64,000 nt of DNA from an uncultured Pelagibacteraceae bacterium (lineage in GTDB: Bacteria > Pseudomonadota > Alphaproteobacteria > Pelagibacterales > Pelagibacteraceae): positions 75,196-139,195 of the forward strand of contig CABXTC010000001.1 of assembly GCA_902515095.1 (NCBI GenBank), in the 5' to 3' direction. Positions 5,722 through 32,780 of the stretch are shown here, one piece after another. How positions within the stretch are numbered: the first letter of the stretch is position 1; each line of letters begins with the position of its first letter. The position numbers and the translations under genes are program-made. The notes under the pieces were generated by a model. The model did not search any database. It was not told the origin of the DNA and saw only the letters and a list, made by a program, of their open reading frames with translations.

Positions 5722-5811
5722 TGGCGGAGAGACTGGGATTCGAACCCAGGAAAGAGTTGCCCCTTTGCCGGTTTTCAAGACCGGTGCTTTCAACCGCTCA
5801 GCCATCTCTCC
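5722..5811 (-). tRNA. tRNA-Ser(UGA)
   Basis: Reverse complement GGAGAGATGGCTGAGCGGTTGAAAGCACCGGTCTTGAAAACCGGC...TCTCTCCGCCA; anticodon TGA, long variable arm, encoded CCA. Confidence 0.95.
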
Positions 5812-5885
5812 GTGAGCAAGGTTTTATAAGTATAAATTTTAAATTCAACAAAAAAACAGAACATATATAAAAAAAAAATTTAACC

Positions 5886-5909
5886 TTTCGTTAGAGTTTC
5901 GTTAGAGTT
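5886..5909 (+). repeat. tandem 11-mer (TTTCGTTAGAG)x2 + TT, left copy
   Basis: Identical 24-nt block at 7616-7639. Confidence 0.9.
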
Positions 5910-5965
5910 ATCCTATAAAAACCAATAAAAAAAAAGATAATAGCTAATATCAATTATTTAAAAAT

Positions 5966-6568
5966 ATGATTTTTTTCTTAAGATTAATTAAAATTTTGTT
6001 AATTCTAAATTTGATCTGCAATATATCAATAGCAGAAAAGTCATATCAAGAGTGTGATGGAAATATATCTAATCTTACAAAATTTTCAGTCAAACATTAT
6101 AAGAAAGTAAGAAAATGGACTGAATGTTTTGGAAAAGGAGTTGGTCCCAATGGAGCAACTTATATTGGTGAATTCAAAGATGGAAAATTTCATGGCAAAG
6201 GAATCTACACTCATGAAGGTAGAGAGTATAATGGTAATTGGAAAGAAGGAAAAAAATTTGGTTTTGGAGTATATACTTATAGTAATGGAGATAGATTTGA
6301 GGGTAACTGGATTAAAAGCGAGTATGATAATAATGGAAAATATATTTATTCAAATGGAGAAATGTACATCGGTGAGTGGAAAAAAGATAAATATAACCAA
6401 CCTGATAATGGAAATGAAAAACATGGCAAAGGTACATTTTTTTATTTAAATGGAGATGTATATTCAGGTTATTGGAAAAATGGTTTAAAACATGGCAAAG
6501 GTGTTCTTACAAAGTCCGACGGTACTAAAATTAAAGGTAAATGGAAAAAAGGAAAAATAAAAAAATGA
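5966..6568 (+). CDS. MORN-repeat protein with signal peptide
   Basis: Repeated YxGEFKDGKFHGKG / YNGNWKEGKKFG / YSGYWKNGLKHGKG units. Confidence 0.92.
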   Translation: MIFFLRLIKILLILNLICNISIAEKSYQECDGNISNLTKFSVKHYKKVRKWTECFGKGVGPNGATYIGEFKDGKFHGKGIYTHEGREYNGNWKEGKKFGFGVYTYSNGDRFEGNWIKSEYDNNGKYIYSNGEMYIGEWKKDKYNQPDNGNEKHGKGTFFYLNGDVYSGYWKNGLKHGKGVLTKSDGTKIKGKWKKGKIKK

Positions 6569-7119
6569 ACAAATCATTGTTAAAATTTTTATCTAATGTA
6601 GGACCACTAGCAATATTTTTATATATTTATTATGATAGTGAAAAAAGTTTAACTACTGCATTGCCACCTTTAATTATTGCAACAATTTTAGCTGTCGGTT
6701 TAGTGTGGATTGTTGAAAAAAAAATTGCTTTTATACCTCTAATAGGTGGTTTTTTTATTGCTCTATTTGGTAGTTTAACAATTTATTTTGATAATCCAAT
6801 TTTTATTTATATGAAACCAACTATTGTAAATATTTTAATTGGTTTACTTTTAATTTTTGGAGGATACTTCTCGAAAGAGCCAATGCTTAAAAAAATAATT
6901 GGTGATAAAGTTCCAATGACAATTGAAGGTTGGAAAATATTTAATAACAGATGGGTAGTTTTAGTTTTTTTTCTAGCTCTGTTAAATGAAATTGTATGGA
7001 GGACACAATCAGAGGAATTTTGGGTTAATCTAAAAGTATGGGGTAGTCCAGTAATAACGGCAATCTTTTCGTTCTTTCAAATAAAACTTGTAAAAAAGTA
7101 CAGATTGAAGAAAGTTTAG
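6565..7119 (+). CDS. yciB: inner membrane-spanning protein YciB / intracellular septation protein A
   Basis: Multi-TM protein with FNNRWVVLVFFLALLNEIVWR...EFWVNLKVWG family signature; ATGA overlap with MORN gene. Confidence 0.85.
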   Translation: MNKSLLKFLSNVGPLAIFLYIYYDSEKSLTTALPPLIIATILAVGLVWIVEKKIAFIPLIGGFFIALFGSLTIYFDNPIFIYMKPTIVNILIGLLLIFGGYFSKEPMLKKIIGDKVPMTIEGWKIFNNRWVVLVFFLALLNEIVWRTQSEEFWVNLKVWGSPVITAIFSFFQIKLVKKYRLKKV

Positions 7120-7120
7120 A

Positions 7121-7396
7121 TTAAAGATTTTGTAGCTTCATGCAAATAAAAGGGTCTTCACCATTTGCTTTTAAAGCCTCTTTAATTGCTGTTCTATTTG
7201 GAACTCTTCTTTTTTTTTTCCAGTATCCAACTTCTTTCCACATTGCACAGACTTCGTCTAAATCTAGACCTCTATAATGTCTGACAAGTTCACTATGTGG
7301 TGCATGTTTGTACCAAAAAGTAGTTCCTTCCTTAAAAGCATAAGAATTTCCTTGAAGAAAAAAAGTAAAAAAAAATACAAACAAAATTTTTTTCAT
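7121..7396 (-). CDS. small secreted hypothetical protein
   Basis: 91-aa ORF with N-terminal signal peptide (MKKILFVFFFTFFLQGNSYA). Confidence 0.65.
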   Translation of the reverse strand: MKKILFVFFFTFFLQGNSYAFKEGTTFWYKHAPHSELVRHYRGLDLDEVCAMWKEVGYWKKKRRVPNRTAIKEALKANGEDPFICMKLQNL

Positions 7397-7404
7397 AAAG
7401 TTAT

Positions 7405-7476
7405 TTATTCAGTATATTGCACGAGTGCCCATATCGCTAAAAATATAAATACTCCTGCTAGTTCTGCTCCTGTCAT
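7405..7476 (-). CDS. 23-aa single-TM small protein (MTGAELAGVFIFLAIWALVQYTE)
   Basis: ATG preceded by AGGAG at canonical spacing; ends 8 nt before the 7396 start; not in supplied ORF track. Confidence 0.6.
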   Translation of the reverse strand: MTGAELAGVFIFLAIWALVQYTE

Positions 7477-7615
7477 TATTAACTCCTGTTTTTTTTTAAG
7501 TTTCCTTTACAGATTATAATTAATTTTATGTTATGAAAAGTATAATGTTTAATATATATACGCATTTTTTTTGATTTATTAAAAAAAATTCAATTATAAG
7601 TTTTCAATTTATTAA

Positions 7616-7639
7616 TTTCGTTAGAGTTTCGTTAGAGTT
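7616..7639 (+). repeat. tandem 11-mer (TTTCGTTAGAG)x2 + TT, right copy
   Basis: Identical to 5886-5909. Confidence 0.9.
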
Positions 7640-7755
7640 TTGTAGTTTAGGCAGGACAATAATGATGCGTTTTTCGTAAAAGCTAAATTTCAAAAAATAA
7701 GTAATGACTTGATAAGTATGTGAATCGTCGTAAAAGGGGTAGGGGTTACTTGGAA

Positions 7756-7794
7756 TTTCAAGACCGGTGCTTTCAACCGCTCAGCCATCTCTCC
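7756..7794 (-). pseudogene. partial tRNA-Ser(UGA): 5' half up to end of anticodon loop
   Basis: Exact match to the tRNA-Ser 5' half at 5773-5811; 3' half absent. Confidence 0.9.
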
Positions 7795-7940
7795 GTGTGC
7801 TAGGTTTTATAAGTATAATGTTAAATATCAACAAAAAAACTAAGCTAAATTTTTATGAATTTGAGTAATTAGTAATAGTCTTTCATATAAAAATGTTTAA
7901 TCATTCAGTAAACATACAAACCTGAGATCATTCTTTAATA

Positions 7941-9203
7941 ATGAAGTACGATTTTTTAAAAACTTATAATGTAATATTAATATTTATAACGCTTTATATT
8001 TCACTTATAGTTGGTTTTTTTTTTGATGAAAACTTAAACCTGGGTGCTAAACCAGATTGGTATTTTGGTGATATACCAGTTATAGAGGCTTTATCTGTAG
8101 ACTTAAAAAAAACTTTCATTAACTATGATATGTATGGCCATCGACATTCGCCAGTATATTTAATTTTTTTAAGTTTTTTGAAAAGTATTGGTTTTGATTA
8201 TGATTTAATTAGATTTATCCATCTCAATATATCTATTTTATTAATTTATTTTTTTTTCAAATGTTTATCATTTAAATTCGACAATATTGAAAAAAAAATA
8301 CTGTTAATTTTTTCATTTTCAATCTTTTTATCACCAACCTTTAGATCTTTAGCAATTTGGCCAGATACAAGAATAATTGGATTATTATTTTTTGTAATTT
8401 CTATATTAGAATTCTTAAAATATTTAAGATACAAGAAAAAAATATATATATGGAAAAATACAATTTTTTTAATCTGTTCGTCATATATAAGTCCTAATTT
8501 TTCTCTATTCATAATCTTTTTCGCATATCACTATTTAAAAGAAAATAATTTCAAAGATTTATTTTTTTTATATATTTTTTGTTTAGCTAGTTCTTTGCCC
8601 GTTTTTTATTATATATTCATATTAGATGTAAATTTTTTAATGGTAAACACGCCAGGTGAAATTACTGGTGAAAATATAAGCTTAAGTTTTAACATTTCAG
8701 ACAAAATACTTATTATAAGTAGTATTATATTATTTCACTTAATTCCTTTTCTTTTAAATAAAAATTTTTTCTGCGAAATAATTAAAAATCTAAAAAAAGA
8801 TCTTTTGATTGTTAGTTTTATATTTGTAATTCTTATATATTTTTTTAATTATCAGATTAATTTTACTGGGGGTGGAATTTTTTTTCAATTTTCACATTTC
8901 ATTTTCAAAAACAATGTCCTATTTTATATAATTAGTTTCATATCTTTAATTTTATTATTTTCTTTTGTAAAAGATAATTTAAATAATTTTCTTATTTTTT
9001 CTATTCTAATTATTTCTAATGTACAAAATTCAATTTATCACAAATATTATGATCCACTCATGATGATATTATTTTTCTCTGTAATTATCATTCCTAGTAG
9101 TTTGAGATTTTTTGATAAAAAAAATAATATTTTTATAATCTATGCTTTTTATATTCTTTATATCATTTCAAGAATATTCAAAAATAATCTTTTAAGTTTT
9201 TAA
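7941..9203 (+). CDS. uncharacterised multi-pass membrane protein
   Basis: 420-aa ORF with ~10 hydrophobic segments; superficially like dolichol-type glycosyltransferase membrane proteins but no motif recognised. Confidence 0.75.
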   Translation: MKYDFLKTYNVILIFITLYISLIVGFFFDENLNLGAKPDWYFGDIPVIEALSVDLKKTFINYDMYGHRHSPVYLIFLSFLKSIGFDYDLIRFIHLNISILLIYFFFKCLSFKFDNIEKKILLIFSFSIFLSPTFRSLAIWPDTRIIGLLFFVISILEFLKYLRYKKKIYIWKNTIFLICSSYISPNFSLFIIFFAYHYLKENNFKDLFFLYIFCLASSLPVFYYIFILDVNFLMVNTPGEITGENISLSFNISDKILIISSIILFHLIPFLLNKNFFCEIIKNLKKDLLIVSFIFVILIYFFNYQINFTGGGIFFQFSHFIFKNNVLFYIISFISLILLFSFVKDNLNNFLIFSILIISNVQNSIYHKYYDPLMMILFFSVIIIPSSLRFFDKKNNIFIIYAFYILYIISRIFKNNLLSF

Positions 9204-25506: not shown

Positions 25507-26412
25507 TTAAATTTTGATTTTATTTAATGCATTGTTTTTAAACAAATTCGCTTCATGTATATATCTTCTTACCATTTGTGTTGTTTTATGACCTGTCATA
25601 GCCATTATATTTCTTTCTTCGGCACCAAACTCTGCGGCCGTAGTTGCAAATCCTGATCTTAAACTATGACCAGAATAGCTTTCTGAATCAAGTCCTGCTT
25701 TTCTTGCATATCTCTTGATTATAAGGGCTACAGACTTATCTGAAAGATCAAAAATTTTTTCTTCATTAGTGTTCGCTAACTTATTATTTAGATAATTTTT
25801 GAGTGCAATTACTGGACAAAATTCTTGATTATTGAAGTAGGGGATAGCTTTAATTGTTCCCTCGCCTGATTGGTCAGTTTTAGATCTTTTAATTAAAATC
25901 TTTACGCCCTCTGTTACGAATTCAACATCTGAAGAATATAGATTAACAAGTTCTGACCTCCTAAAACCACCTGCAAATCCTATTAAAATTAAAGCTTTAT
26001 CTCTAATATTTTTCTTATCTATTACATTAATAATTGATTTTAAATCATTGATTAATATTGGTTTTTTAGCTTTCTGTCTTGACCCTATTGTTCTTTTTAT
26101 CCCGTGTAAGTTTTCCATAATTATAGGATGTTTTGTATCCAGATAATGCCCTTTTAGCTTATGAATCACACTTATAGAGGCTATTCTTCTCTTCAAAGTG
26201 CTAAATTTAGAGGATTTTGAAAGATGAGTTATGTAGAGAGCAACAATTTTAGGCTGAGTTGGCATTGAAGAAAACCCACTTTTTGCGCAAAAATTAGTAA
26301 AATCTCTAAAATCTGACTGATATGCTCTTAAAGTATTTTCAGCTTTAGAACTTTTCAAGTTTTTAATTGTTTCGATTTCTAAGCTTTTAATATTAGTTAT
26401 TAAATCATTCAT
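25507..26412 (-). CDS. site-specific tyrosine recombinase/integrase
   Basis: Catalytic set: R (GGFRRSELVNL), K region (KRSKTDQSGEG), HSLRSGFAT, GHKTTQMVRRY. Confidence 0.95.
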   Translation of the reverse strand: MNDLITNIKSLEIETIKNLKSSKAENTLRAYQSDFRDFTNFCAKSGFSSMPTQPKIVALYITHLSKSSKFSTLKRRIASISVIHKLKGHYLDTKHPIIMENLHGIKRTIGSRQKAKKPILINDLKSIINVIDKKNIRDKALILIGFAGGFRRSELVNLYSSDVEFVTEGVKILIKRSKTDQSGEGTIKAIPYFNNQEFCPVIALKNYLNNKLANTNEEKIFDLSDKSVALIIKRYARKAGLDSESYSGHSLRSGFATTAAEFGAEERNIMAMTGHKTTQMVRRYIHEANLFKNNALNKIKI

Positions 26413-32704: not shown

Positions 32705-32718
32705 CTTCTCACAAAATC

Positions 32719-32775
32719 GGTAGGCATTTGAACTATATTGTGCGCCTTACATTAAGTTAAAGCACTAAAAAAGGA
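32719..32775 (+). promoter_or_regulatory. probable SAM-V riboswitch aptamer overlapping the Shine-Dalgarno
   Basis: GTAGGC-ATTTGAAC...TTGTGC-GCCTTAC...AAAGCACTAAAAAAGGAG immediately before metY ATG; resembles the described Pelagibacter SAM-V class. Confidence 0.75.
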
Positions 32776-32780
32776 GTAAG

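Follow-up and report, generated by a model that had tools for sequence, protein, structure and literature searches.

Integrase-less SAR11 elements with end-to-end matched putative arm sites at tRNA-Ser(TGA): candidates for mobilization in trans by satellite integrases

Introduction

Tn916 has a lambda-type (heterobivalent) attachment site with 11-bp repeats. For ICEMlSymR7A, five IntS arm sites with the consensus TGKTGGTATC have been described, all of which are required (PMC11963761). The SAR11 elements described here resemble these systems in that short direct repeats, which we read as putative arm sites, are found inside both ends beside the core. They differ from the known att systems in that the putative arm word changes between elements while the two ends of each element agree, and in that no integrase accompanies it.

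The Dehalococcoides ssrA islands carry target-gene repeats at their ends, and some of them have no integration module and lie in tandem with integrase-bearing islands (PMC3146451). Like these islands and other cis-mobilizable elements (CIMEs), our elements are bounded by target repeats, have no integration module and occur in tandem with integrase-bearing elements. However, the recombinase of the Dehalococcoides islands is of the serine type and their target is the 3' end of ssrA, whereas the SAR11 elements carry a tRNA 5' half with its upstream region and matched arm words, and no ICE relative was seen for them. The element under study keeps attL and attR and has no recombination or transfer genes, as a CIME would. 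We do not file it as one because the one relative at tRNA-Ser(TGA) examined over its whole length, in G586, resembles a satellite and not an ICE, and none of its genes was recognised as a conjugation gene.

Described marine satellites include VEIMEs and tycheposons (PMC10803314, PMC10187409) and PICMIs (PMC10803314). The integrase-bearing relatives of our elements resemble them in encoding an integrase, a primase-helicase and a RusA-like protein with no recognised structural genes; one of them (G586_1) has both its own integrase and the satellite gene set. In contrast, the element under study encodes no integrase, primase-helicase or RusA-like protein. Islander reported 5' tRNA fragments in 159 of 3,919 islands and rejects islands that have no integrase or are shorter than 2 kb (PMC4383910), and therefore elements like ours escape standard searches. 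As in Islander-type tRNA islands, a tRNA and a displaced fragment mark the ends and the crossover is centred on the anticodon; unlike in most of those islands, it is the 5' tRNA fragment that is duplicated.

Results

We analyzed a window of 64,000 nucleotides (the whole stretch of DNA) from the 1,065,439-bp genome of an uncultured Pelagibacteraceae bacterium. The original prediction described identical tandem 11-mers just inside both ends of a segment flanked by two tRNA copies, 75 nt inside the left copy and 116 nt inside the right one, and read them as possible integrase arm sites. Both 24-nt blocks (TTTCGTTAGAG, twice in each) are exact, and the distances hold (Table 1). The left tRNA copy is intact; the right one proved to be only a 5' half (39 nt) followed by ~46 nt of upstream DNA. 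The 11-mer has four copies in its own genome, all at this element and all on one strand, and the reversed pattern has none. Likewise, five first-order Markov shuffles of the window contained no repeats of at least 22 nt. A common dispersed repeat, the outcome that would have spoken against the prediction, is thus ruled out, as the 11-mer occurs nowhere else in this genome. A 22-mer search also returned a Paenibacillus match (L006).

The element spans 1,983 bp (5773-7755) in tRNA-Ser(TGA) and is missing from relatives. It is followed on the right by 85 nt that repeat the 5' half of the tRNA together with upstream DNA, which places the crossover in the anticodon loop/stem; positions 7756-7840 are the original end of the tRNA target. 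When the window flanks are joined across the insertion, they align continuously with several element-free relatives, so the insertion was precise. Thus, as in a tRNA-gene island, an intact tRNA and a displaced fragment flank an insertion whose site is empty in relatives, but neither the open reading frames nor the family matches include an integrase gene inside it. The right end (7640-7755) has no conserved RNA fold and no Rfam match, which led us to reject a structured RNA or attC-like site there and separates the element from integron cassettes and CALINs, with their structured attC sites. To the right of the tRNA fragment, the sequence (7756-9203) resembles element left ends more than it does the upstream DNA of element-free genomes. 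It includes an inserted ORF for a 420-aa membrane protein (7941-9203), ahead of the EamA gene; this region is possibly a second, truncated element. Elsewhere in the window, a SAM-V riboswitch (32713-32779) precedes a gene of sulfur-metabolism type, as would be expected for SAR11.

Table 1. Features of the element and its borders (window coordinates).
Feature	Position	Strand	Remark
Intact tRNA-Ser(TGA)	5722..5811	-	Regenerated target gene, attL side; ARAGORN
Crossover region, anticodon loop/stem TTTCAAGACCGG of tRNA-Ser(TGA)	5773-5784
Left tandem 11-mer pair, TTTCGTTAGAG x2	5886..5909	+	Putative left arm sites
Diverged copy of motif TNTCCTATAAAATCCTAT	5908..5926	+	Possible accessory-factor (Xis/host/helper) site
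MORN-repeat protein, 200 aa	5966..6568	+	Cargo
IspA/YciB-family membrane protein, 183 aa	6568..7119	+	Cargo
91-aa protein	7121..7396	-	Cargo; no family match
Right tandem 11-mer pair, TTTCGTTAGAG x2	7616..7639	+	Putative right arm sites
Right-end segment between arms and core	7640..7755	+	Conserved 75-89% in other elements
Displaced tRNA-Ser 5' half (7756-7794) with ~46 nt upstream DNA	7756..7840	-	attR side

A DNA search with the right end retrieved further elements beside tRNA-Ser(TGA), and a tandem array of three is present in AG-453-P15 (L005/G297), a single-cell genome of SAR11. We built a sequence model (R1) from the right end and ran it on 399 genomes of the genus, which gave ~25 strong matches. 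The same architecture occurs at tRNA-Ser(TGA) in ~25 other SAR11 genomes, with unrelated cargo and some elements in tandem, and no integrase was seen in the integrase-less elements read at this tRNA. Sizes range from 251 bp (G416) to 14.7 kb (G586_2). The smallest (L101:7282-7533) is gene-free and looks like a left and a right end fused across the arms. The cargo includes type IIG and type III restriction-modification systems, a PLD-SNF2 helicase, NB-ARC/STAND NTPase and caspase-domain proteins, and a metallophosphatase and glycosyltransferase pair (L044:4658-6529), which we take to resemble phosphate-starvation lipid remodelling genes. Cargo modules form mosaics from one element to the next. 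The cargo often has much higher identity than the flanking DNA (92% versus 77% identity for G230/G297, 86.5% versus 69-70% for G137/G639, and 89% versus 69-72% for G452/G639), which indicates that the elements have moved horizontally.

The predicted core-arm...arm-core plan is borne out in ~25 elements at this tRNA, and within an element the arms match end to end. In 23 of 24 two-ended elements, one tandem 11-mer pair is set ~113-145 bp inwards of the left core and another lies within the right end; the exception (G408_2) has no left arms. The word itself varies around the consensus TTTNNTNNNAG, with 41 different units among 104, and differs even inside one genome (G297). For instance, TTTGTCTCTAG (G192), TTTGTCTCAAG (G600), TTTGCTTATAG (G639), TTTACTTCAAG (G369) and TTTCGTAATAG (G526) are each near-identical at both ends, and a clear mismatch between left and right was found only in G586_2.

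For 16 non-redundant elements, left and right arms differ on average at 1.06 of 18 positions, versus 5.9 when re-paired (0 of 20,000 permutations); the shuffles take the elements as independent, so this exact probability should not be over-read. Left and right arm distances are strongly correlated (Mantel r 0.92). Arm distance is uncorrelated with how far the adjacent sequence, at the left or the right end, has diverged (r -0.13 to 0.05). A partial Mantel test gave 0 of 5,000. The right-end bodies of G526 and G433, for example, differ by 5%, and their arms are quite different, having changed at both ends. End-to-end matching of the arms is independent of the remaining end sequence, and common descent of entire elements is by itself no explanation for it. 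Selection for one integrase specificity and gene conversion between ends are candidates for the joint change of the word.

Some elements with this layout do carry an integrase. In G586, a 9.0-kb integrase element adjoins a 14.7-kb integrase-less element at the same tRNA-Ser(TGA). The 9.0-kb element codes for a tyrosine integrase of 558 aa, at L116:7393-9069, together with an HTH protein, a primase-helicase and a RusA-like protein. The integrase matches phrog_1 (E 6.5e-15) and is missed by PF00589. Integrases of this family share the phrog_1 similarity and invariant catalytic-type residues (R365, R498 and Y531); a PDB search with the integrase profile returned designed repeat proteins only. Homologues are rare, with 6 of 399 genomes in one search and 4 of 397 in another. 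Related satellite-like elements of 8-10 kb combine a tyrosine integrase and a primase-helicase with the same tandem-arm layout. Three of these integrase elements are at tRNA-Leu(TAA) (G246, G404 and G182), where they have a duplicated 5' tRNA half, tandem arms at the left end and a recurrence of the word in the integrase leader, close to the right end.

The arm words link the two kinds of element. The left arms of the G586 integrase element (TTGTCTCAAGTTTGTCTCAAG) are 114 bp inwards of the core, two further copies of the word stand close to the right end, and the arm 21-mer (TTGTCTCAAG twice) is exact in integrase-less elements of G600 and G416. Similarly, G567 has an integrase-less element with exactly the arms of the G246 integrase element. 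Two integrase-less elements come after the integrase element of G182. Both ends of the first carry the arms TGTGCTGGT, identical to the arms of the integrase element in G404; both ends of the second carry GTACAAG. (A row of type IV pilin-like genes is found in an integrase-less element of G182 at tRNA-Leu, L126:3419-7075.) In all, three of the four integrase-bearing elements examined have arms that recur exactly in other genomes, in integrase-less elements occupying the same site; for one of the three, that site is tRNA-Ser(TGA) itself. Some of this sharing is possibly due to chance because the arm words come from a limited set. No integrase-bearing element with an exact TTTCGTTAGAG arm was found in the integrase-homologue searches (399 and 397 genomes), and no satellite-type integrase in the window's own genome. 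The partner integrase is usually missing from the genome that holds an integrase-less element.

Integrase-less elements at the two tRNAs have in common, immediately inwards of the left arms, the motif TNTCCTATAAAATCCTAT, which has 87 copies in 77 of the 399 genomes; the reversed motif has none in any listed genome. At most of the sites read, a tandem repeat of ~11 nt stands just before it, and such sites are at tRNA-Leu, at tRNA-Ser or where a protein-coding gene begins. Another five loci, which have TTTCCTATAAAATCC but lack arms, appear to be unconnected with the elements. The motif is missing from integrase-bearing elements in all four cases read. Its presence at three sites in integrase-less elements, and not in the integrase-bearing ones read, argues for the integrase-less elements being a class of their own. 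The third attachment site is the start of a small protein-coding gene (MNKENASKLWKIIQEAGDYLVG...; L149, L151, L155, L160, L166, L170 and L173), and a broken integrase element in G439 lies apparently in the same neighbourhood.

Neither the arms nor the right end has an exact match in IMG/VR viral contigs, and thus there is no sign of packaging; these contigs gave no integrase match either. Phage records gave only chance tRNA-Ser similarity and no integrase match. The pattern AAGTATGTGAATCGTC matched four viral contigs, which were discounted, as they have no element end. The left-end motif TTATCCTATAAAATCCTAT of integrase-less elements is found at one homologous place in six viral contigs (L141-L146), in one of which (L145) it precedes a gene near terminase genes; this could be a helper-phage signal or chance.

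Discussion

We consider it likely that positions 5773-7755 are a non-autonomous SAR11 element whose TTTCGTTAGAG pairs are arm sites for a satellite integrase provided in trans. The arm-site reading of the original prediction thus gains support from the integrase-bearing relatives, which have the same layout at the same tRNA and at tRNA-Leu. Its insertion would have been the work of a tyrosine integrase recombining at the anticodon loop of tRNA-Ser(TGA), and would have given the tRNA a new 5' half and upstream (promoter) region. An integrase from a separate satellite-like element would bridge arm and core sites at both ends, leading to integration or excision of the cargo, in trans or by accretion, and the one arm sequence that an element carries at its two ends would determine the integrase able to move it. 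Binding of the integrase to the arms, its action in trans and the route between cells are what we infer from sequence comparisons.

The elements could instead be immobile remnants, deletion products of integrase-bearing satellites that became fixed at the tRNA, with matching arms as inherited relics. Such an origin would fit the missing integrase, the usual absence of a partner integrase from the same genome, tandem arrays that resemble accretion and the 251-bp G416 copy, with its two ends seemingly fused across the arms. It is nevertheless rather unlikely, given that elements are more alike than flanks across lineages, that right ends and arms are conserved, that TNTCCTATAAAATCCTAT is found in integrase-less elements at two tRNA sites and one protein gene but not in the integrase-bearing elements read, and that the arms match end to end independently of the rest of the ends. 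Mosaic cargo could also result from cassette exchange by homologous recombination between conserved ends, with no site-specific recombination, and SAR11 recombines freely. Yet exact tRNA-half junctions, a core at each tandem join and clean empty sites mark site-specific integration, and we regard exchange of this kind as very unlikely.

The 11-mers might bind some other factor, such as a regulator, a replication initiator or a helper-phage packaging protein, with the ends kept alike by gene conversion; the right arms of integrase-bearing elements, being in the integrase leader, could also be operators. This is quite improbable, as the positions near the left core and right end, the pairing with integrase-bearing relatives and the occurrence in a gene-free 251-bp element all fit arm sites better. 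Most improbable of all is that the 11-mers serve the chromosomal tyrosine recombinase at 25507-26412, ~18 kb away. It is the sole PF00589 match in its own and six other element-bearing genomes, always ~11-25 kb from the element; this count of one recombinase per genome may be an undercount because PF00589 misses the satellite integrase. However, it is not tied to the elements, because it occurs in 60 of the 79 genomes of the family and in 13 of its 14 genera, and its spread across the family regardless of elements makes it unlikely as their own integrase. Moreover, it is Xer-sized (301-317 aa) with SAM-like and catalytic domains only, arm types differ within G297, and a separate integrase family carries the same arms. 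This recombinase adjoins an ogt-like gene, is conserved in most SAR11 genera and scores far below the XerC/XerD cut-offs; it is possibly the SAR11 Xer.

Returning to mobilization in trans by satellite integrases, we tentatively suggest that SAR11 may hold a pool of integrase-less cargo at several sites, with paired arm words as interchangeable addresses that assign each element to a satellite integrase. In this scheme, which we rate as somewhat short of probable, each word, identical at both ends, would be exchanged at the two ends together, whatever the other parts of the element.

Few mobile elements are recognised in the small genomes of SAR11. The integrase-less elements bear on how these bacteria gain defence and nutrient genes, and a common class, with its left-end motif in 77 of 399 genomes, would escape island finders that require an integrase. 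The many natural matched arm words would also offer a ready test of how integrase arm specificity evolves, and of how the cargo of one enzyme stays apart from that of another.
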